Shown here: positions 5,489 through 59,601 of the stretch, one piece after another
Layout of the letters: each line of letters opens with the position of its first letter
How positions within the stretch are numbered: the stretch's first letter is position 1
Assembly (NCBI GenBank): GCA_023213215.1
Contig: CP096136.1
Coordinates: 682,001-746,000, forward strand
Direction: 5' to 3'
Length of the DNA: 64,000 nucleotides
DNA from: Flavobacterium sp. JAD_PAG50586_2
GTDB lineage: Bacteria; Bacteroidota; Bacteroidia; Flavobacteriales; Flavobacteriaceae
Made by a program: the position numbers and the translations under genes
Notes under the pieces: generated by a model
Databases searched by the model: none
Told to the model about the DNA's origin: nothing
The model's input: the letters and a program-made list of their open reading frames with translations, nothing else

Positions 5489-5572
5489 TTGTTAGAATGC
5501 CATTGCCTTAGCCCAGATTACCTCACTAAGTCTTTATTTATAATAGGTGTTTGGTGAACACTTCGTGTTTGG

Positions 5573-5643
5573 AATGGAAATCCTTTTTATTTGAAATTCA
5601 TTTTCAAATAAAAGATTGTAGTGGAAAGCCGGAAACAGCTCCT
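5573..5643. repeat. Intergenic palindromic element, copy 1 of 3
   Basis: The left flank (TGGAAATCCTTTTT) and right flank (AAAAGATTGTAGTGGAAAGC, then CAGCTCC) resemble the copies at 59507 and 40066. The centre is a 12-bp stem, 5585-5596 with 5602-5613, loop TTCAT. It ends 12 bases before the trmD promoter box. Confidence 0.6.
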
Positions 5644-7411: not shown

Positions 7412-7482
7412 CCCCCACTTTGACCAACCTCTGGCGAAAACCGTGAATGTTGCTCAGATTTAAAACCATAATTATCAAAAAA
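7412..7482 (+). promoter_or_regulatory. Possible L19 autoregulatory leader
   Basis: Between the promoter box and the rplS ATG lies a G+C-richer leader. CTGGC (7431-7435) can pair with GCTCAG (7452-7457, one bulge) around a loop containing GAAAACCGTGAATG. Structured leaders are a common way for ribosomal proteins to repress their own synthesis, and I recall that bL19 leaders have been proposed in Flavobacteria. The identification here is inference from position and a short hairpin. Confidence 0.35.
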
Positions 7483-9306: not shown

Positions 9307-9335
9307 GACGGTCTTATTTCCAAAACGAGACCGTC
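9307..9335. terminator. Bidirectional terminator after icd
   Basis: GACGGTCT and AGACCGTC form an 8-bp stem, extended by A/T pairs, with A-run and T-run flanks. It serves icd and the convergent secreted-protein gene. Confidence 0.88.
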
Positions 9336-9339
9336 TTTT

Positions 9340-10014
9340 TTATTCACCTAAAACATCAACCTTATTGATAATGATGGTTGCCTTAACATTTTGCAACAGG
9401 CCTGAAAGATTATTTCCTATAATGGCGCCTTTATCATTGAATATAGAAAACTGAGCGGTGTTTGGAGAGACTGTCCCTTCGTTAAGGGCTTCAATAACCA
9501 ATTGATTCTGACCGTCCCTTAGATTGAGTTGAATTTCTTTGTATCCACTTTCTAACCTTACAGCCTCTATTACAACTTCATCATTGAGCCAAATCCTAAC
9601 GACATCACCATCGGGATCACCAAAATCCTTTAGGGCAAATTTTGCGATTTTAGTGGAACATTTATAAGTTGCCAAAAGATAATCCTTTTTGTAATATTCG
9701 TATATTTTTCCATCCGTAACCTGCTTATTCATTTTATCGGTATACTCTTTTGCAACACTGGCAAACTGCTCTTTTTCAAAAATACTTTTTTCTTCTTCCG
9801 GAGCTTTCTTCAATAGTGAAACTCCTGACAGTAGTTTGTCTTTCTTATCAAAAATACTCGGATAACTAATTGCCTTGGAACTCGTTGGAGAAACCTGACC
9901 TTTCGGATTGGAAACAGGCGCAATGCTGAGTTTCTTTTTAGGCTGCTCAAATTGGGCAAAACCTTTAAAAGAAAAAGCCAAAAAAAACACTAAAGCAAAA
10001 CTTGCCTTCATCAT
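9340..10014 (-). CDS. Secreted protein of unknown function
   Basis: This 224-residue protein starts with a Sec signal peptide (hydrophobic core ASFALVFFLAFSF, cleavage near FAQ). A Ser/Pro/Lys-rich low-complexity stretch follows to about residue 70. The rest is predicted beta-rich: residues about 115-220 include VVRIWLNDEVVIEA and LNLRDGQNQLVIEALN, which look like a beta-sandwich with a repeated strand pattern. I recognise no family. Two adjacent ATG codons could start it. It is single-gene and convergent with icd. Confidence 0.75.
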   Translation of the reverse strand: MMKASFALVFFLAFSFKGFAQFEQPKKKLSIAPVSNPKGQVSPTSSKAISYPSIFDKKDKLLSGVSLLKKAPEEEKSIFEKEQFASVAKEYTDKMNKQVTDGKIYEYYKKDYLLATYKCSTKIAKFALKDFGDPDGDVVRIWLNDEVVIEAVRLESGYKEIQLNLRDGQNQLVIEALNEGTVSPNTAQFSIFNDKGAIIGNNLSGLLQNVKATIIINKVDVLGE

Positions 10015-10105
10015 AGATAAATTAAGTCGTAAAAGTATTTAAAAACCATAATGAACGCCATTTTATTTAACCTAACCTTAACAAAAATCCATTACTATAA
10101 TATAT

Positions 10106-10113
10106 TAGATTTG
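10106..10113 (+). promoter_or_regulatory. -7 promoter box TAGATTTG for the AraC-type gene
   Basis: An exact TAnnTTTG match 16 bases before the ATG at 10130. Confidence 0.5.
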
Positions 10114-10129
10114 CAAAAGAAAAAAAACA

Positions 10130-11266
10130 ATGATTGCTATTCTCAATTATCTATCATTAGGAGCATCATTCCTATTATCATTTCTATTATTGATTAATCC
10201 CCAGAAAGTAAATCAAAAAGCCAATAGGTGGTTTGGAGGATTTGCATTGTGTTTGTTTTTTCTATTTCTTGAAAACACCATTTATATTGTTGACATAAAT
10301 TATGAAAATCAATTACTATTTGATTTTCTAACCCTTCCATCATTAATCATCAATCCTTTGCTTTATTTAAGTGTGGTTTATTTCGTAACTCCCGAAAAGC
10401 AATGGCAAAATAAAGATTATCTCCACTTTTGTTTCGCATTACTAATGATTTTACTCATCGTTAGTAATGTTGCTTTGAATAATAAAGAAATTTTTATAAA
10501 CCATACCTCAAATAATATTACAATTCTACTGCATATTATATATAGCATTCAACTGTTTGCGTATCTTTTATTTACTTATCTGAAAATCACAAATCATCAA
10601 AAAAACCTTGCTCAATTTTCATCAACTGTCGAAAGTGTAGATTTAAAATGGTTAAAAAATATAATTATTTCAATTATTATAATGTCGCCATTATGCATTT
10701 TAAGTTCTCTTTTTAATTTTTTCCCATCATCGAGCCATAATTTTGAATTTTTTAAAGGTTTAATTTCCCTAATAGGTTTATTTTATATTGCCTTTTATTC
10801 TATGAAACAAAAAGAGATTTATCCATTTAATACAGAGGACAAAAAACAAATTAATTCTATCATTCATGAAACTAATACCTATGACGAAATTAGAAAAAAA
10901 TTGATCTCCGATTCCCAATTAAAGGAATATGTCACAGACTTATCTACAATAATGAAAACCGAAAAGCCTTTTTTAGAATGCGAATTAAGTTTGGTGAAAT
11001 TGGCTTCGAGAATGAATATTTCAACTCATTTATTATCATATATAATTAATAAAGGGTTTAATGAAAATTTTTATCAATTTATCAATCGATATCGAATTGA
11101 AGAAGCAAAAAAACTGATAGTAAATCCCCAAATGAATCATTTGAGTTTTCAAGGAATTGGATTTGAAGTAGGATTTAATTCCAAGACGGTTTTCAACACT
11201 ACCTTTAAAAAATGCACAGGTCAAACACCTAGTGAATTTAAAAAACTTCAATATTGTGAAACATAA
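10130..11266 (+). CDS. Membrane-anchored AraC-family transcriptional regulator
   Basis: This 378-residue protein joins an N-terminal membrane half to a C-terminal AraC/XylS DNA-binding domain. About seven hydrophobic helices span residues 1 to about 230. The C-terminal domain (about 275-375) has two helix-turn-helix units: LVKLASRMNISTHLLSYIIN, and the conserved second part IGFEVGFNSKTVFNTTFKK with the family ending GQTPSEFKK. The ligand or signal is unknown. It lies upstream of a TonB receptor/DUF4249 pair on the same strand and could regulate it. The gene is visibly more A+T-rich than its neighbours, which may hint at transfer. Confidence 0.88.
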   Translation: MIAILNYLSLGASFLLSFLLLINPQKVNQKANRWFGGFALCLFFLFLENTIYIVDINYENQLLFDFLTLPSLIINPLLYLSVVYFVTPEKQWQNKDYLHFCFALLMILLIVSNVALNNKEIFINHTSNNITILLHIIYSIQLFAYLLFTYLKITNHQKNLAQFSSTVESVDLKWLKNIIISIIIMSPLCILSSLFNFFPSSSHNFEFFKGLISLIGLFYIAFYSMKQKEIYPFNTEDKKQINSIIHETNTYDEIRKKLISDSQLKEYVTDLSTIMKTEKPFLECELSLVKLASRMNISTHLLSYIINKGFNENFYQFINRYRIEEAKKLIVNPQMNHLSFQGIGFEVGFNSKTVFNTTFKKCTGQTPSEFKKLQYCET

Positions 11267-11278
11267 TTTGTTTAAATG

Positions 11279-11312
11279 TGTTCTGATTTATAAATCTGAA
11301 CAGCACATTGTT
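11279..11312 (+). terminator. Weak terminator after the AraC-type gene
   Basis: GATTTATAAATC is a perfect palindrome flanked, after a T-T mismatch, by GTTC and GAAC. It is followed by TTGTTTTATT. The inner loop must open, so the hairpin is weak. Confidence 0.35.
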
Positions 11313-11420
11313 TTATTATAAAGACTTTTGCACTCAATTTATTTTATGAGTTTCACAACATCTAAAGGGTTCTATCATCAAACGCAATCAAATTTAATCA
11401 TTCATTCAATCATCATTCCA

Positions 11421-13789
11421 ATGCGACTAAAAATCATGTTATTGTTACTGTTCTTAACAACAACCATCTCCTTTTCTCAAAAAAATCTACACTGAGTGGA
11501 ACGATATCCGACTCAAAAACTAACGAAACACTTATTGGCGTAAACGTATACATCCCCGAAATCAAAGCCGGAATTGTAACCAATGAGTATGGTTTCTATT
11601 CTATTACGCTACCCAAAGGAACTTACAAAATTCAAATCAGTTATTTAGGATATGAAACGATTGAGGAAAGTATTTCATTGGAACAAAACCTCAAGAAGAA
11701 TTTCAGTTTAACAGAAGCAGGGGAAGTTTTAGAAGAAGTAATTATTAACACCGAAAAAACAGCAACCAACATTCGAAAACCTGAAATGAGTGTCAACAAA
11801 CTTTCTATACAAACGGTCAAGCAAATGCCGGTAGTATTGGGAGAAGTTGATATCCTAAAATCCATTTTAACCTTACCGGGAGTTACCAATGCGGGCGAGG
11901 GACAATCGGGTTTCAACGTACGAGGCGGGAGTGCCGATCAAAACCTAGTGCTTTTAGACGAAGCCACTATTTACAATTCGTCTCACCTTTTTGGATTTTT
12001 CTCGGTTTTCAATGCCGATGCCATCAAGGATTTAAAACTATACAAAGGCGGAATTCCATCACGCTTTGGCGGAAGGCTTTCATCAGTTTTAGACATTTAT
12101 CAGAAAGAGGGAAACAAAAATGGTTTCCACATGAATGGTGGAATTGGTTTAATTTCGAGCAGGATAATGGCTGAAGGTCCAATGGAAAAAGGAAAAGGTT
12201 CCTTCCTTATCGCTGGAAGAGGTTCTTACGCACACTTATTCCTAAAACTGGCCGACAATCCAAACTCTGCCTATTTCTATGATTTGAATACCAAATTAAG
12301 CTACCAACTCAACGATAAAAATAATTTGTACTTATCGGGTTATTTCGGGCGCGATGTTTTCAGCATTAACAGTGACTTTGAAAATACCTATGGAAATACA
12401 TTTGGCAATTTAAGATGGAATCATTTGTTCTCAGACAAATTGTTCTCTAATCTGTCTATGATATACAGCGATTACTACTATGGGTTGAAAATAAACTTTG
12501 TCGGTTTCAACTGGGCGAGCGGAATTCAGAATTATAACATCAAATATGATTTTAAGCATTACCTGACGGATAAGGTCAAATTAAGTTATGGAGTAAATGC
12601 CCAATACTATGATTTCAATCCAGGTAAAATCACTCCGTTAGATGATAATTCAAGTATCAACGAAAGACAACTGGATAAAAAATACGCTTTTGAACCTGCG
12701 ATATACTTTGATGTAGATCAGAAAATCACTTCTGCCTTTTCTATTAACTATGGAATAAGATATAGTATGTTTTACAGATTGGGCCAGCAAATCATGAATG
12801 AATACGCCAATGACCAAGCTGTTAACTGGAATAACGATTTCAAGATATATGAAAAAGCTACACCAACAGGAACCCGTTACTACAAAAACAATGAAGTAAT
12901 AGCTAGTTTCGACAACCTTGAGCCAAGAGTTGCCATGTCGTATTCCTTTAATGATAATCAGTCGGTAAAAGCTAGCTATAACCGAATGTCGCAATATTTA
13001 CATTTGATAACGAACACACAATCGCCAACGCCATTGGATGTTTGGGCACCAAGTGATAAATTCCTAAAACCACAAGTATTAGATCAGGTAGCAATAGGGT
13101 ATTTCCAAAACTTCACTAACGATAAATACTCGCTTGAAGTGGAGGCTTTCTACAAAAAAATCAAAAACCGCGTTGACTATATAGATGGTGCTGATTTAAT
13201 AGCGAACGAAGCCATCGAACAGGTCGTATTAAACGGAAAGTCGAGAGCTTACGGATTGGAAGTTTTGCTTAGAAAAAATGAAGGTAAATTAACAGGATGG
13301 GTTGCTTATACCTTATCAAGAGCAGAACAGCAAACACCCGGAAGAACTGCCGAAGAAAGCGGAATCAACAGCGGAAAATGGTACAGGGCAGGTTATGACA
13401 AAACACATAATCTTTCTATTACTTCTATGTATGAGTTAAACAAAAAGTGGAAGTTTGGTTCTATATTCACATTGCAATCCGGTCAGCCAGTGACTTTTCC
13501 TAATGGAAAATATGAATACCAGGGAATCCTGATTCCAAGTTACGGATTGCGTAACGAGAACAGTCTTCAGGCTTATCACCATTTAGATGTTTCTGCAACT
13601 TATACGCCAAAACCTGATAAGAAAAAAGGATGGCAAAGCGAATGGGTTTTCAGCATTTATAATCTTTACGGAAGAAAAAATGCCGCATCCATAACATTCA
13701 GGCAAAATGAGGACACAGCACAAAATGAATCGGTGAAGCTTTCGATTTTCGGAATTGTACCAAGCGTTAGTTATAATTTTAAATTTTAA
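11421..13789 (+). pseudogene. TonB-dependent outer-membrane receptor, frameshifted near the N-terminus
   Basis: The gene has an ATG at 11421 and a signal peptide (MLLLLFLTTTISFSQ). A carboxypeptidase-regulatory-like domain follows (NETLIGVNVYIPE through ISYLGYET), then a plug domain (MPVVLGEVDILKSI, FNVRGGSADQNLVLLDEA) and a long beta-barrel ending in an aromatic F (SYNFKF). The frame breaks in an A7 run at 11479-11485. One more A gives an intact 789-residue protein. The receptor would bring a large ligand across the outer membrane with TonB-ExbBD energy. It lies 3 bases before a DUF4249 lipoprotein gene. The break is probably a sequence error. Confidence 0.87.
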
Positions 13790-13792
13790 ATC

Positions 13793-14614
13793 ATGAACAA
13801 AATAATCCTTTTATTATCTATAGTGTCCTTTTTAAGTTTAACCAGTTGCGAAGAGGTCGTAACAGTAGATTTAGAAACTGCTCCTGCAAAATTAGTAATC
13901 GATGCCTCCATCAATTGGGAAAAAGGTACAACGGGTGCGCAACAAATCATCAAATTAACCACAACAACTGGTTATTACAGTAACGTAATCCCAACCATTT
14001 CAGGTGCAACGGTTTTTATTACCAATAGCTCGAATACTGTTTTCAATTTTATGGAAGAGGTTCCCAATACCGGACAATACATTTGCAATAACTTTGTCCC
14101 TTTAATGGGCGAAACGTATGTGTTAACCGTGAATTATGCCGGACAGAATTATACTGCTACCGAAAAAATGGTTCCGGTTCCGGATATCATTTCTGTGGCA
14201 CAAAGAGATGATGCCGGATTTAGTGGCGAGGATATCGAAGTTAAATTCTTCTTTCAGGACAATGGATTGGAAGCAAATTCCTATCTGATGAAATATAGCA
14301 CACCAGTAAATGCTTTTCCTCAATTTGAAGCCTTTGACGACCGTTTTGAGCAGGGAAATCAAATGTTTGGCCTATACTCACATGAAGACCTGAAAGCCGG
14401 CGATACAATCGATTTTACACTATACGGAATTTCAACACAATACTACAATTATATGGACATTCTGATTGGTATTGCCAATGGTGGCAATGGTCCGTTTCAA
14501 ACGCCTCCGGCAACCTTAAGAGGGAATATTGTCAATCAAACCAATCAGGACAATTATTGTTTGGGCTATTTCAGATTATGTGAAGTAGACAAAATGCAAT
14601 ATGTTGTTCAATAA
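13793..14614 (+). CDS. DUF4249 lipoprotein, partner of the TonB receptor
   Basis: This 273-residue protein has a lipoprotein signal (LSLTSC, Cys19 region) and the DUF4249 opening CEEVVTVDLETAPAKLVIDA. Beta-rich segments follow (GATVFITN, ETYVLTVNYAGQNYTATEKM). DUF4249 genes regularly sit directly after TonB-dependent receptors in Bacteroidetes. By analogy with SusD they are thought to act as surface lipoprotein partners, but this is inference. Only three bases separate it from the receptor stop, so the two are one transcript. Confidence 0.85.
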   Translation: MNKIILLLSIVSFLSLTSCEEVVTVDLETAPAKLVIDASINWEKGTTGAQQIIKLTTTTGYYSNVIPTISGATVFITNSSNTVFNFMEEVPNTGQYICNNFVPLMGETYVLTVNYAGQNYTATEKMVPVPDIISVAQRDDAGFSGEDIEVKFFFQDNGLEANSYLMKYSTPVNAFPQFEAFDDRFEQGNQMFGLYSHEDLKAGDTIDFTLYGISTQYYNYMDILIGIANGGNGPFQTPPATLRGNIVNQTNQDNYCLGYFRLCEVDKMQYVVQ

Positions 14615-14685
14615 TTAACAGCTTGGCGAGTACGATTTACGAAGTGTTATATTTATATTTACACAAATCGTAAATTGTATTTCCA

Positions 14686-15348
14686 ATGTCTTCACATCAT
14701 ATCGTTCGCGACGACCAGGAACCGGCTTTAATCATTGCCAACGGAGAAGCCTGTAGTGCTGAATTATTAGGGCAATTGCTCGAATGGTCGCCAATAATCA
14801 TTGTCTTGGATTCAGCTATAGAAAGGGTATTGGAATTGGGAATCAAAGTCGATGTTTTATTAGGTGATTTTGACAGAGGTTTTGATCCTGATTACTACAA
14901 GGAAAAACAGTATCCGTTAGAAATTGTCTACGTACCCAATCAGGATAAAACCGATTTGGAAAAAGCATTTGATTACCTTATCGAACAAGGCCACAAAGCT
15001 GCCAATGTTATTTGGGCAACCGGAAGACGTGCCGATCACACGATTACCAATCTAACCAATATCGTAGCCTATCGAAATCTTCTGAAAATTGTCATTCTAG
15101 ATGACCATTCCAAGGTTTTCCTGCTTCCAAACCATTTCGAAAAATGGTACACCGCCAATACCATAATATCGCTGATTCCAATCGGAAAAGTTACCAGCAT
15201 AAATACTAAAAACCTTTTTTATCCGTTAAACAATGAAGATTTAACCATCGGCTACCGAACCGGAAGCAGCAATCATGTTTCCGCAGACGGGATCGTTTCA
15301 ATAACCCATAAAGACGGTGATTTATTATTAATGGAATGCTGGGACTAG
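14686..15348 (+). CDS. thiN: Thiamine pyrophosphokinase
   Basis: This 220-residue cytoplasmic enzyme transfers pyrophosphate from ATP to thiamine, giving thiamine diphosphate. Visible motifs are IIANGEACS, the metal-binding VLLGDFDR, the catalytic QDKTDLEKAFDYL, the nucleotide loop ATGRRADHT, and the C-terminal thiamine-binding GSSNHVSADGIVSI. No TPP riboswitch-like sequence is seen upstream. A long hairpin lies after the stop and before rlmF. Confidence 0.93.
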   Translation: MSSHHIVRDDQEPALIIANGEACSAELLGQLLEWSPIIIVLDSAIERVLELGIKVDVLLGDFDRGFDPDYYKEKQYPLEIVYVPNQDKTDLEKAFDYLIEQGHKAANVIWATGRRADHTITNLTNIVAYRNLLKIVILDDHSKVFLLPNHFEKWYTANTIISLIPIGKVTSINTKNLFYPLNNEDLTIGYRTGSSNHVSADGIVSITHKDGDLLLMECWD

Positions 15349-15368
15349 GAAAAAATTACATAAAAAAA

Positions 15369-15426
15369 GACCGCAGATTTGCAGATTAAACGCAAAATAA
15401 AACAATCCATCTGTGAATCTGCGGTC
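15369..15426. repeat. Long inverted repeat (18-bp stem) between thiN and rlmF
   Basis: The arms are 15369-15386 and 15409-15426. The outer 11 bp, GACCGCAGATT with AATCTGCGGTC, are perfect. Two G-T pairs and five more perfect pairs follow, around a 22-base loop. An A7 run precedes it. It could terminate thiN, act in the rlmF leader, or be a dispersed repeat of the type ending in AATCTGCGG seen in Bacteroidetes genomes. Confidence 0.7.
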
Positions 15427-15450
15427 ATCTTTAAAAAACCAAACGACAAG

Positions 15451-16395
15451 TTGAAAAATCAAAATACCATCGAAAAAACAACTTTACATCCCAGAAATTC
15501 TCATCGGTTTCGTTATGATTTCGAACAGCTGATAGCTGTTTCTCCTGAGTTAAAGGATTTTGTTCATAGCAACGAACATCAAACAGAAACCATTGATTTC
15601 AGTAATCCTGAAGCAGTAAGGACTTTGAACAAAGCGTTATTGATTTCGAATTACGATATTCAAAACTGGGATATTCCTGCGGATTATCTCTGCCCTCCAA
15701 TTCCCGGACGCGCTGACTATCTGCACTATATCGCTGATTTATTGGCCGATTCCAATAATGGAACTATTCCCGAAGGAGAAACTGTTGTTGGTTTAGATAT
15801 TGGCGTTGGTGCCAACTGCATTTATCCAATTATAGGTAACTCGGCTTACGGGTGGAGTTTTGTCGGAACAGACATCGATGAAAAAGCACTTCAGAACTGC
15901 AAAAAAATCATCTCAAATAATCCGAAACTAATCGACTTTATAAGTTTACAGCTGCAGACAGAACCAAGGTTTATCTTCAAAAATATAATCCTGCCCGAAG
16001 ACCGATTTGCTTTTACCATCTGCAATCCTCCTTTCCACAATTCGCCTGAAGAAGCTGCGAAGAGTGCGTTGCGGAAAGTCAACACTTTAGAGAAAACAAA
16101 AACGGATAAGGCTGTATTAAACTTTGGCGGGCAAAATACTGAACTCTGGTGCAATGGTGGCGAAATTGGCTTCATTACCCAAATGATTTATGAGAGTGCA
16201 AAATACCCGATGCAGTGCTTTTGGTTCACGACTCTGGTGTCCAAAAAAGACAATCTTAAAAGCATTCATAAAATCCTAAATAAAGTTGGGGCAGTCGAAA
16301 TAAAAACTATTGATATGGCTCAAGGCCAAAAGATAAGCCGAATAGTAGCCTGGACATTTTTATCGGAAACACAACAAAAAAATTGGAAATTCTAA
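15451..16395 (+). CDS. rlmF: 23S rRNA (adenine-1618-N6)-methyltransferase
   Basis: This protein of about 314 residues N6-methylates A1618 of 23S rRNA using SAM. The family start is seen in TTLHPRNSHRFRYDFEQL. LCPPIPGRADYLHYIADLL follows, then motif I GLDIGVGANCIYPI, motif II FVGTDID, and the N6-adenine catalytic motif NPPFHNSPEEA. The C-terminal half has NFGGQNTELWCNGGE. The best start is a TTG at 15451 giving MKNQNTIEKTTLHPRN. A further TTG at 15379 lies inside the hairpin arm and is rejected. No ATG is available, which is unusual in this genome. Confidence 0.9.
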   Translation: MKNQNTIEKTTLHPRNSHRFRYDFEQLIAVSPELKDFVHSNEHQTETIDFSNPEAVRTLNKALLISNYDIQNWDIPADYLCPPIPGRADYLHYIADLLADSNNGTIPEGETVVGLDIGVGANCIYPIIGNSAYGWSFVGTDIDEKALQNCKKIISNNPKLIDFISLQLQTEPRFIFKNIILPEDRFAFTICNPPFHNSPEEAAKSALRKVNTLEKTKTDKAVLNFGGQNTELWCNGGEIGFITQMIYESAKYPMQCFWFTTLVSKKDNLKSIHKILNKVGAVEIKTIDMAQGQKISRIVAWTFLSETQQKNWKF

Positions 16396-16502: not shown

Positions 16503-16649
16503 CGTATAACCTCCGGCTCGATTCGTATAACCTCTGGCTCAATTCGTATAACCTCCGGCTCGATTCGTATAACCTCTGGCTCGATTCGTATAACCTCTGG
16601 CTCGATTCGTATAAGCTCCGGCCCAGTACGTATAAGGCCCTCCACAGCT
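16503..16649. repeat. 21-bp tandem repeat (minisatellite), about 7 units
   Basis: The units begin with CGTATAA at 16503, 16524, 16545, 16566, 16587, 16608 and 16629, an exact 21-base spacing. The core is CGTATAACCTCYGGCTCGATT, with C/T variation at one base. The last two units diverge. Since 21 is divisible by three, all frames stay open and give repetitive reading frames on both strands. I consider these non-coding. The array fills most of the 311-base gap between rlmF and nudK. Confidence 0.9.
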
Positions 16650-20900: not shown

Positions 20901-21700
20901 TTGAAACAGTTGCTTCTTCTGCTTATTGTATTTATTTTTCATTGCACTTCTGCACAGGAAAGTACTGCCAGCAAACAGGTTTCTACTTTTACTATTGAGG
21001 CACCACAACTGAAAAGCGCTAAAAAGATTTGGGTATACCTTCCAAAAAACTATACTACTTCTACCAAAAGATTTCCTGTTATCTATATGCATGATGCCCA
21101 AAATCTTTTTGATGCAAAAACATCTTATGTTGGCGAATGGAATGTGGATGAAACTTTAGACAGCATAAATGCACAAGTTATTGTAATCGGAATTGAACAT
21201 GGTGGCGACAAGCGAATAGACGAACTAACTCCTTCAAACACCCAAAATACGGTGGCGGTAAAGCGGACGGTTATTTAGATTTTATTGTTAACACATTAAA
21301 ACCAAAGGTGGACGCGACATACAGAACTAAAACCAATGTAAAAAACACAGCCATTTTTGGCAGTTCGCTAGGCGGATTGGTTTCCTTTTATGCTGCTATA
21401 AAATATCCCGAAGTATTTGGAAAAGTAGGCTGTTTCTCGCCAGCTTTTTGGTTTGGACGTAATGAAATGAACGATTTGCTGACAAAAACCAAAGAATTCA
21501 AAACAAAGATATACTTCCTGTGCGGTGATAACGAAGGCGATGCTGATGTGATTCCGGATATGAAAAATGTGGAGCACTGGGTCAATACCAAACGCTGTGA
21601 ATGCAAAAAACTCAACAAGGAAGTAATTGTCAAAGGCGGACAGCACAACGAAAAATTATGGCGTGAAAACTTTAAAAAGGCGTACCTTTGGCTGTTTTAA
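20901..21700 (+). pseudogene. Secreted alpha/beta-hydrolase (esterase D/Fes-like), frameshifted
   Basis: A TTG start at 20901 opens a signal peptide (LLLLLIVFIFHCTSAQ). The putative-esterase domain follows: IWVYLPKNY, FPVIYMHDAQNLFD, the nucleophile elbow GSSLGG (second part), SPAFWFGRNE, and the late histidine in GGQHNEKLW. The frame breaks near 21233. Adding one T (LTPFKHPKYGGGKADGYLDF) restores a 266-residue enzyme. Family members hydrolyse esters such as siderophores, formylglutathione or xylan feruloyl groups. The substrate is unknown. Here the deletion is in a TT pair, not a long run. Confidence 0.82.
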
Positions 21701-21711
21701 AAAACTAAGAA

Positions 21712-22155
21712 ATGAACAACAACGATATCTTTAAAAAACTCCGCGTAGCCTTGCAGTTGCGTGATGATCAAATTGTGGAAATTTTGGAATTGGTAGATTT
21801 CAGAATGTCAAAAGGTGAAATTGGCAATCTTTTCCGCAGTCAGGATCATGCTGATTTTATGGAATGTGGCGATCAGGTGTTGCGTAATTTCCTTAACGGA
21901 TTGGTAATTCATCTTCGTGGCACTAAAGAAAACCCAAAAAATGCGATGGACGTTATCCGTCAAAATCAAGAAGTCGTAAAGAAAAATGTTTCAGAAAAGG
22001 CGAAAGGAACCTTTAAACCCGATACCGAATTCAAACCTAAGCCTAAGACCGACGCTAAAAAGAAGCCTTTCAATCCAAAAGACAAAAAGAAAACGGCTCC
22101 AAAAATTCAGGTAGTCGAAAAAGTACAGTTTAAAAACGGTAAGAACAAAAAGTAA
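21712..22155 (+). CDS. yehS: DUF1456 (YehS-like) protein
   Basis: This 147-residue cytoplasmic protein has a DUF1456 domain (residues 1 to about 70) with the repeat-like pattern NDIFKKLRVALQL, ILELVDFRMSKGEIGNLF and a related downstream helix set. It is followed by a Lys/Pro-rich basic tail (about 95-147) likely to be disordered and nucleic-acid friendly. Function is unknown. It starts 11 bases after the esterase stop. Downstream lies the 41-bp tandem repeat. Confidence 0.82.
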   Translation: MNNNDIFKKLRVALQLRDDQIVEILELVDFRMSKGEIGNLFRSQDHADFMECGDQVLRNFLNGLVIHLRGTKENPKNAMDVIRQNQEVVKKNVSEKAKGTFKPDTEFKPKPKTDAKKKPFNPKDKKKTAPKIQVVEKVQFKNGKNKK

Positions 22156-22206
22156 TTTCGAGATGAAATTATTTGACAAAAATCTTATCCTATTTTATTT
22201 AAACCT

Positions 22207-22329
22207 TGTCACATTATTAATCAAAATAAAAATTTTGTGACAGATATTGTCACATTTTTTTTGAAAATATTTTTTTTGTGACAGAAGTTGTCACAATATT
22301 TTTAAAATCGAAAATTTTGTGACAACCTT
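22207..22329. repeat. 41-bp tandem repeat with paired TGTCACA/TGTGACA half-sites
   Basis: TGTCACA occurs at 22207, 22248 and 22289. TGTGACA occurs at 22236, 22277 and 22318. Both series have exactly 41-base spacing, giving alternating orientations 29 and 12 bases apart. The A/T-rich DNA between half-sites varies while the half-sites are unchanged. Adjacent copies also form hairpins (7-bp stem, 5-base loop), and the last pair extends to a 10-bp stem. It lies between convergent yehS and folD. Confidence 0.85.
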
Positions 22330-22340
22330 TTACAAAATAA

Positions 22341-22366
22341 AAATCCTGAGCTTTTACTCAGGATTT
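22341..22366. terminator. Bidirectional terminator between yehS and folD
   Basis: AAATCCTGAG and CTCAGGATTT form a perfect 10-bp stem with loop CTTTTA. It is T-rich on both sides. Confidence 0.85.
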
Positions 22367-22369
22367 CCT

Positions 22370-23249
22370 TTATCTTAACCTTCTCTGTTCTCTTGCGAGT
22401 AATGTGTTCTTCAGCAGCATTGCGATTGTCATGGGGCCAACGCCGCCCGGAACCGGAGTGATGTAAGACGCTTTTTTGGAAACGGCATCAAAATCTACAT
22501 CGCCTGTAATTCGGTAGCCTCTTGGGTCGTTTTCATCGGCGACGCGTGTTATTCCAACATCTATTACGACTGCATCATCCTTTATCATTTCGGCTTTGAG
22601 ATAATTCGGAACGCCTAATGCTGTGATGATAATGTCAGCCTGTGTTGTTATTTGGGCTATATTTTTTGTATAACTATGCGTCAATGTAACTGTAGAATTT
22701 CCGGGAAAACCTTTTCTTCCCATTAAAATACTCATCGGACGACCAACAATGTGGCTTCTGCCGATTACTACCGTATGTTTTCCTTTGGTTTCGACGTTAT
22801 ATCTTTCCAGTAATTCTAATATTCCAAATGGCGTTGCCGGAATAAAAGTCGTCATATCCAAAGCCATTTTTCCGAAATTTTCGGGATGAAAACCATCAAC
22901 ATCCTTGCTTGGGTCGATTGCCATTAAGATTCTTTGGGTATCAATCTGATCCGGTAACGGAAGCTGGACAATAAATCCATCAATATCATCATTCTGATTG
23001 AGCTCCTCAATTTTTTTAACAATTCTGTTTCAGAAGCAGTACTTGGCATTTTAATCAAAGTCGATTCAAATCCGACCAATTCACAGGCTTTTACTTTGCT
23101 TCCGACATAGGTAAGGCTCGCGCCATCATTCCCGACAATCAATGCCGCTAAATGTGGAACTTTTTCGTTGTTGGCTTTCATTTTGTTAACCTCAGCCGTG
23201 ATTTCAGCTTTGATATCGCCTGAGATTTTTTACCGTCTAATAATTTCAT
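22370..23249 (-). pseudogene. folD: Methylenetetrahydrofolate dehydrogenase/cyclohydrolase, two frameshifts
   Basis: FolD interconverts methylene-, methenyl- and 10-formyl-tetrahydrofolate with NADP. From ATG at 23249 the start MKLLDGKK is followed by a break in an A6 run (23226-23231). Then comes the catalytic YVGSKVKACE segment (Lys in the active site). A second break lies in an A7 run (23011-23017), before the C-terminal half with GRSHIVGRPMS (NADP loop) and PVPGGVGPMTIAML. Adding one A at each site gives a 293-residue enzyme of normal length. FolD is normally essential, so two independent breaks strongly suggest sequence error. Confidence 0.9.
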
Positions 23250-40065: not shown

Positions 40066-40143
40066 ATGCCTGGTCCCGCTATCCGCTATATCTTTTATCT
40101 CGTTTGTCAACGAGATAAAAGGATGCCGCTCCTATCGGGGCTA
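40066..40143. repeat. Intergenic palindromic element, copy 2 of 3 (reverse orientation)
   Basis: TTTTATCTCGTT and AACGAGATAAAA form a 12-bp perfect stem with loop TGTC (40093-40120). The flanks are CCGCTATCC on one side and GGATGCCGCT...ATCGGGGCT on the other. In reverse complement these match the flanks of the copies at 5573 and 59507. Confidence 0.65.
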
Positions 40144-40151
40144 AAGAGAAC

Positions 40152-59461: not shown

Positions 59462-59506
59462 TGTAGTGTAGTTATATGTAGTTAGTTGTTGTTTATGCTG
59501 AAACCC

Positions 59507-59601
59507 TAGCCCTGATAGTAGTGGAAATCCTTTTTGATTTTATACGTAGCCTGCGGAGTGTAAAATTAAAAAGATTGCAACGGATAGCAGGAAATAGCTC
59601 C
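59507..59601. repeat. Intergenic palindromic element, copy 3 of 3
   Basis: The left flank TAGCCCTGATAGTAGTGG, with AAATCCTTTTT, and the right flank AAAAAGATTGCAACGGATAG, with CAGGAAATAGCTCC, match the copy at 5573. The central stem pairs TTTTTGATTTTA with TAAAATTAAAAA (one G-T), and continues inwards with TAC/GTG. It lies between carB and rpmH. Confidence 0.62.

Follow-up and report, generated by a model that had tools for sequence, protein, structure and literature searches.

The locus and its array

The window analysed here is a 64,000-nucleotide stretch of Flavobacterium sp. JAD_PAG50586_2, corresponding to positions 682001–746000 of a single 3.81-Mb contig (home genome, G000), in which two convergent genes, one for a DUF1456 protein and the other folD, enclose a short array of inverted half-sites (Table 1). 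Three copies of TGTCACA alternate with three of TGTGACA, all six exact, at start-to-start steps of 29, 12, 29, 12 and 29 bp and hence with a period of 41 bp, which bears out the layout given in a preliminary description of this DNA. The extent proposed there (22207–22329) is correct at its start and too long at its end, as the last half-site stops at 22324. Tandem Repeats Finder independently called the repeat at 22206–22324, with a period of 41, 2.9 copies, and 75% matches. The two strands of the 64 kb together contain the half-site 7-mer 12 times, against a shuffle mean of 6.4 (12 was reached in 2 of 100 shuffles), and six of these occurrences fall within the array’s 118 bp. The unit interiors are A/T-rich and variable.

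In the window, folD lies in two frames (22370–22924 and 22924–23181), as does an esterase gene (20901–21278 and 21308–21700), which suggests either frameshifted genes or assembly indels. Because A/T runs and these split genes suggest indels nearby, the difference between units of 35 and 36 bp may partly reflect assembly error. Restriction-modification genes are not among the genes flanking the array. Rfam covariance models matched the window at gathering level four times, in no case at the array; the matches are three Flavo-1 RNAs (5556–5639, 40068–40146, and 59504–59598) and an L19-Flavobacteria leader (7425–7452), which point to Flavobacterium. Also present is a 21-bp tandem repeat at 16503–16622 (5.7 copies, 92% matches). 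A CRISPR array was considered and set aside, since the conserved block is short and every spacer is A/T-rich.

Table 1. Features of the array locus (window coordinates), and TGTCACA sites and helix-turn-helix (HTH) genes of the home genome (contig coordinates).
Feature	Position	Strand	Half-sites, steps, or remarks
Window coordinates
DUF1456 protein gene	21712..22155	+	directed at the array
Stretch without counterpart in seven syntenic relatives	22152..22330		relatives G679, G737, G625, G611, G605, G579, G685
Whole array	22207..22324	none	three TGTCACA-N22-TGTGACA units, period 41
Array unit 1	22207..22242		22207–22213 and 22236–22242
Spacer, units 1/2	22243..22247		GATAT, 5 bp
Array unit 2	22248..22283		22248–22254 and 22277–22283
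Spacer, units 2/3	22284..22288		GAAGT, 5 bp
Array unit 3	22289..22324		22289–22295 and 22318–22324
Terminator-like hairpin behind folD	22341..22366		kept in syntenic relatives
folD, C-terminal part	22370..22924	-	directed at the array
Contig coordinates
TGTCACA site, window array	704207		three units
Other TGTCACA sites	965098, 967870, 970457, 970769, 1277623, 1499434, 2013530, 2319664, 2367430, 2456617, 2459635, 2607265, 3498095, 3632592
HTH gene	433899		TGTTTCA upstream; steps 28,12,28
HTH gene (partial)	2236354		TGTGTGA; steps 28,12,28,12,28
HTH gene	2570889		TGAGCA
HTH gene	3357889		GTTGCAA (read by eye)
HTH gene	1347089		TGTGGCA (read by eye)
HTH gene	3165828		TGTCGCA, TGTCGCA, TGTGACA, TGTGACA (F-F-R-R; read by eye)
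HTH gene (frameshifted)	3400370		TGTGGCA/TGTGACA/TGTCACA (read by eye)

Absence from relatives

Fourteen relatives, 78–84% identical at the DNA level in the folD part, were inspected at folD. In eight of them the DUF1456 gene adjoins folD and the array is absent: in the seven named in Table 1 it leads straight into the terminator of folD, with no counterpart of the array or of the ~55 bp ahead of it, and in G101 it is followed by a short unrelated spacer. The other six carry different DNA on the DUF1456 side of folD. Neither the 149 other genomes in a genus sample nor the 394 others in a phylum sample contained the three-half-site pattern. Because the eight relatives with both flanking genes are without it, the array is lineage-specific at this locus, and judging from these comparisons it is recent there. 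The preliminary description had staked its suggestion of constraint on conservation of the half-sites in relatives that keep the flanking genes, and this expectation failed. Another genome (L195, G133) has, beside its folD terminator, a degenerate stretch that resembles the array, with TGCTCA/TGATCA-like half-sites and a period of ~41 bp, and that fails a tandem-unit test.

Dispersed copies in the home genome

A search for TGTGACA pairs elsewhere in the genome, as the preliminary description had proposed, revealed that the array is not unique. Exact TGTCACA-N15..30-TGTGACA units, a pattern that misses degenerate units by design, number 29 in the home genome, compared with 0 for a backward-read control pattern, and they make up 15 sites in eight groups defined by flank homology. 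Seven sites (at 965–970 kb, 2456–2459 kb, and 3632 kb) belong to one duplicated group with 185–225 bp of common flank, and four of the seven lie at a region encoding a protein with RHS repeats. At two of the loci examined (L011 and L017; 965–970 kb and 2456–2460 kb), TGTCACA arrays stand at the ends of RHS-type cassettes, inside the 185–225-bp repeats. Sites 1277623 and 1499434 have 39 bp of flank in common, and the window array has no common flank with other copies in the genome at E 1e-3. Between most groups, the half-sites and their spacing are common and the interiors and flanks are not; constancy of the half-sites is seen across the copies within this genome, which were, however, found by exact match. 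Ordinary genes flank other copies, such as the convergent ammonium transporter and adenylosuccinate lyase genes at 3498095.

Some departures from the regular form were also seen. Site 2319664 has an F-15-F-29-R layout with a degenerate middle half-site, where F and R denote the two half-site orientations, and in one unit (1277664) the final half-site reads TGTGACG. A two-mismatch scan, which covered the N21 form, returned the five 35-bp units and six other places, at the level of the backward control. The pattern TGNNACA-N5-TGTNNCA occurs at 27 places in the genome, 22 of them symmetric: 15 are TGTCACA, four TGTTTCA (414143, 422319, 3060154, and 433810, the last being an HTH gene’s own), and three TGTGGCA (1026916, 1400479, and 1347012, the last again an HTH gene’s own). 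Across four relatives the symmetric matches number three, one G625 HTH gene’s own array and two in G605. Two of the TGTTTCA copies include the HTH promoter region, and the TGTGGCA copies have outer arms (TTTTAACATTT) in common, so that segment copying accounts for at least some of the dispersal.

A family of HTH genes

The pattern TGTCACA-N20..23-TGTGACA-N4..6-TGTCACA was sought in a collection of 84,980 species and found in 59 stretches, including 11 from Hymenobacter and three from Chitinophagaceae with similar units. For the rumen Bacteroidales, RUG12885, single-match genomes, and 12 viral stretches from a separate scan, the analysis extended to the sequence and neighbours of some stretches. 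An HTH gene adjoins five of the 11 Hymenobacter arrays; the other six have none in the neighbour listing. Several rumen Bacteroidales stretches (among L023–L079) hold F-F-R-F TGTCACA sites that are conserved with their flanks across many genomes, in a geometry unlike that of the window array, and RUG12885 holds another multi-site form. Certain Streptomyces and viral stretches (L038, L081, L085, L087, L089, and L090) carry TGTGACATGCATGTCACA palindromes in pairs that enclose an inverted interior.

In Flavobacterium G605, a mixed array has an HTH gene on one side and type I restriction genes on the other. The stretch concerned (L243, G605:C15:95000-113000, positions 9312–15688) comprises the HTH gene, the mixed GTCAC/GTCTC array, and an adjoining type I HsdR/HsdM operon, an arrangement for which a regulatory link to defence is possible. 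Similar genes for a protein of 137–138 aa, with no Pfam match, follow the HTH gene at L241:3765-4181 (+) and L243:8794-9207 (-).

A profile built from five members (A1) matched 108 times at E 1e-3, with matches in 13 of the 15 genomes searched, nine of the 15 having been chosen via their TGTCACA arrays. The home genome has seven matches, the relatives G625 and G679 five and three, a Hymenobacter up to 21, and the Chitinophagaceae genome 14. The proteins are XRE-type, of ~165–250 aa, with an N-terminal HTH and predicted long helices behind it. In Pfam, HTH_19 and HTH_3 are found in the G605 protein and HTH_31 lies just under cut-off in one Hymenobacter protein; NCBIfam, PADLOC, and PHROGs showed generic HTH similarity, under curated cut-offs where such exist. 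A predicted structure of low confidence (mean pLDDT 67.9, pTM 0.41) consists of the HTH and two ~46-residue helices, and its best PDB matches by Foldseek are controller proteins and HipB/SinR (E 0.05–0.3, none at E 0.001 or better). A phage origin was set aside after a scan of viral contigs with A1, in which no relative was confirmed among 36 pattern-matched stretches. No description of the family or of the array was found among open-licence PMC papers; a table in PMC12306157 lists repeat counts and names two Flavobacterium genomes.

Arrays upstream of the HTH genes

Of the 108 matches, 93 were examined for arrays; one weak, generic HTH match (L218) was dropped and 14 others lay outside the set. 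A strict test asked for exact 6-mers either in F-R-F-R order (F-R 26–33 bp, R-F 9–18 bp, second F-R within 2 of the first) or in F-F-R-R order with 13–17-bp steps. By this test an exact inverted array of four sites lies upstream of 48 of the 93 genes (26 FRFR, 22 FFRR), and the half-sites are specific to the gene. Without six loci known beforehand the count is 43 of 87. In controls, the test was passed by 0 of 2790 shuffles and by one of 552 upstream regions of other ORFs, from which ORFs with at least two TGTCACA/TGTGACA upstream had been excluded. The 45 genes that fail comprise some with imperfect arrays by eye and others with none. An earlier, looser scan for at least four copies of one 7-mer was positive for 20 of 36 HTH genes, at least one of which (L232, a G/C repeat) is not an array, versus five of 153 other ORFs; of these five, one lies at a dispersed copy in the home genome (L012). 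The view that the window array is not an ordinary promoter operator stands for this locus, given its convergent genes, and does not extend to the arrays adjoining HTH genes, which are operator-like.

An F-R distance near 30 is common to both the FRFR and FFRR arrays, and an AAAAG spacer is common to paralogues’ arrays with other half-sites and to many dispersed TGTCACA arrays. In G625, an intergenic array near a terminator-like hairpin (L307, from 1432) has three units with different half-sites, TGTGTCA, TGTGGCA, and TGTTGCA; pairs within a unit match at 7/7 positions, and neighbours across the short spacers at 6/7. Together with the common F-R distance, this pairing of units with themselves makes F-N22-R the likelier unit. 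Another intergenic array near a terminator-like hairpin occurs in G679 (L311, from 1474), and the G679 and G605 arrays are mixed, with imperfect pairs.

A further motif, TGGCA-N5-TTTG, precedes 10 of 16 Flavobacterium HTH genes (for example L214, L215, L235, and L244) versus one of 238 other ORFs. We take it to resemble a sigma-54 -24/-12 promoter. It often adjoins the array, where autoregulation of the HTH gene would fit, and none is present at the window array.

Half-sites, recognition helices, and a candidate reader

When the remainder of the protein is controlled for, the distance between half-sites tracks the distance between recognition helices (alignment columns 30–37) in a partial Mantel test (r 0.281, p 0.0002, n=48), which controls relatedness only roughly. 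The rest of the protein gave r -0.001 against the half-site (p 0.49), and the other HTH helices -0.039 (p 0.73–0.74). Upon removal of the seeds (n=43), of all TGTCACA members (n=41), or of close pairs too (n=36), r was 0.285–0.289. Together with the arrays of the same geometry before HTH genes, this covariation indirectly favours the multi-site binding array that was initially suggested for this locus, in which binding by protein is inferred.

The candidate reader in the home genome is the product of HTH gene 3165828–3166328, whose recognition helix, RSLWSHYEGLRRNLP, is nearer to RSLLAHAEANRRPLP and the like in Hymenobacter TGTCACA members than to the RAQWSMFESGKRDLP-like helices of its paralogues. 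In Hymenobacter, helices such as RSLLAHAEANRRPLP or RELLAQVELGRRSLP are found in seven genes that have TGTCACA sites. The candidate’s own sites fail the strict test, with TGTCGCA, one letter off, at two of four positions. Other helices also occur despite TGTCACA-type sites, namely RTQINKFELGKRDLP in G605 (mixed GTCAC/GTCTC array), RSQLAMYELGLRELS in the frameshifted gene 3400370 of the home genome, and RSMMGMMETGDRNWRT in G162 (L255). Five genomes have all of their scanned TGTCACA arrays away from HTH genes, and four of these (G000, G162, G163, and G167, with 7–18 HTH genes each) encode an HTH gene with TGTCACA-type sites upstream, read partly by eye in G000 and G162; the fifth, G178, has no HTH profile match. 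In the home genome no dispersed F-R-F-R TGTCACA array stands beside an HTH gene, and tblastn of five family members from this genome against array loci L011–L021 found nothing.

Interpretation and alternatives

On sequence grounds, the window array is probably an operator-type array that belongs to an XRE-type HTH protein and is present here as a displaced copy. It has the geometry of the family, with F-R distances within 26–33 and R-F distances within 9–18, and it is regarded as displaced, and not as a full family member, because it is flanked by the DUF1456 gene and folD with no HTH family gene downstream. The unit would be F-N22-R, two inverted half-sites ~29–30 bp apart, each unit being held by one HTH dimer whose long helices may set the distance. 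In this view the units are stacked in tandem (F-R-F-R, ~12 bp between) or interleaved (F-F-R-R, ~15-bp steps). The protein of 3165828–3166328 is the best candidate to read the window array. Once bound, an array between convergent genes could conceivably act as a roadblock, serve as an anchor, or have no effect, and an active role of this kind and a passive relic seem about equally likely here.

A role in RNA, the other option raised in the preliminary description, may also be envisioned, with transcribed hairpins (a 7-bp stem and a large A/U loop, or a shorter R-N5-F form) serving as a bidirectional terminator or an RNA-stability element. The convergent gene setting would suit such a role, the RNA fold energy lies at z -7.4 versus shuffles, two R-N5-F hairpins are listed as terminator-like (consensus-like matches), and the TGTCGCA/TGTGACA pairing at the candidate HTH gene is compatible with G-U pairs. 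However, good folding is expected of inverted repeats in any role, the F-N22-R unit has a long loop, 22341–22366 already provides a conserved terminator hairpin, and covariation of half-site and recognition helix would be unexpected if the role were in RNA only, all of which leaves this explanation improbable. Nor do we give much credence to a non-autonomous, MITE-like repeat that spreads by itself, with the HTH gene as one of its hosts or its helper, an explanation compatible with the displaced-array reading. In its favour are the 15 sites in the home genome, compared with none across the 149 others in the genus sample, the extra copies of two other half-site types, and the common outer arms of the TGTGGCA copies; against it, flanks compared by eye in the home genome show no consistent 5-bp target-site duplication, no transposase is linked, and several copies look like segment duplications because of their long common flanks (185–225 bp at seven sites, and the promoter regions at TGTTTCA copies).

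Two other explanations appear very improbable. One invokes the ends of a Tn7/Tn5053-like transposon or a REP/REPIN of a RAYT transposase. Tn7-like ends have TGT..ACA, repeated short binding motifs, and 5-bp spacing, and REPs are dispersed intergenic palindromes, features that the array recalls with its own TGT..ACA, 5-bp spacers, and dispersed intergenic palindromes. Among 18 genomes with arrays, however, nine have no rve match, including three Hymenobacter (a divergent TnsB might lie below the profile’s reach), and three have no Y1 match, the home genome’s being weak; the rve and Y1 loci that were fetched hold no cluster of two or more half-sites. The other is a chance minisatellite with neither function nor partner, which would account for a short, A/T-rich tandem repeat that is lineage-specific at its locus, and which is hard to reconcile with the same half-site and geometry at 15 places in eight groups and in other genera.

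Beyond the displaced array itself, it is tempting to suggest a fast-diversifying system of lock-and-key pairs in Bacteroidota, in which each HTH protein and its private array would shift specificity in step, the protein acting as a long-helix dimer on half-sites ~30 bp apart and the arrays spreading as many anchors for one protein, with which the chromosome could be bridged or insulated. Such intergenic arrays could be single or, as in G625, composite, and the window array would be one anchor of a network. As a whole this proposal is speculative, and we consider it rather unlikely. If the displaced-array reading is right, individual genomes have several paralogous HTH proteins with readable, distinct half-sites in a fixed geometry, from which an HTH recognition code could naturally be trained; an explanation would also be at hand for one class of intergenic repeats dispersed in Bacteroidota, and the role of orphan XRE-type regulators would become directly testable.

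Comparison with known systems

The array resembles REP/REPIN and MITE elements in being dispersed, intergenic, palindromic, and present in several copies per genome; unlike them, its groups mostly have only half-sites and spacing in common, and it differs from REP/REPIN further in having no Y1/RAYT link. Tn7/Tn5053-like ends, with which it shares TGT..ACA, repeated short motifs, and 5-bp spacing, differ in that no rve transposase was found linked to the array. Repressors of the HipB, SinR, and lambda types belong to the same HTH class, but the family has no recognised HipA-like or SinI-like partner, and within one genome many of its paralogues have private arrays, each with its own half-site. 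The C proteins of restriction-modification systems (C.BclI, C.AhdI, and C.Esp1396I) are smaller, at ~75–80 aa, than the ~165–250-aa proteins with long predicted helices described here; moreover, the family has a conserved within-unit distance of 27–33 bp, only one of its loci was seen beside a type I restriction operon (G605), and its array copies occur far from any HTH gene. Nevertheless, C proteins share the XRE-type HTH fold with the family, their inverted operator sites likewise stand in tandem, two together, ahead of their own gene, and one family member matches the PADLOC control-protein profile at E 5.5e-6.
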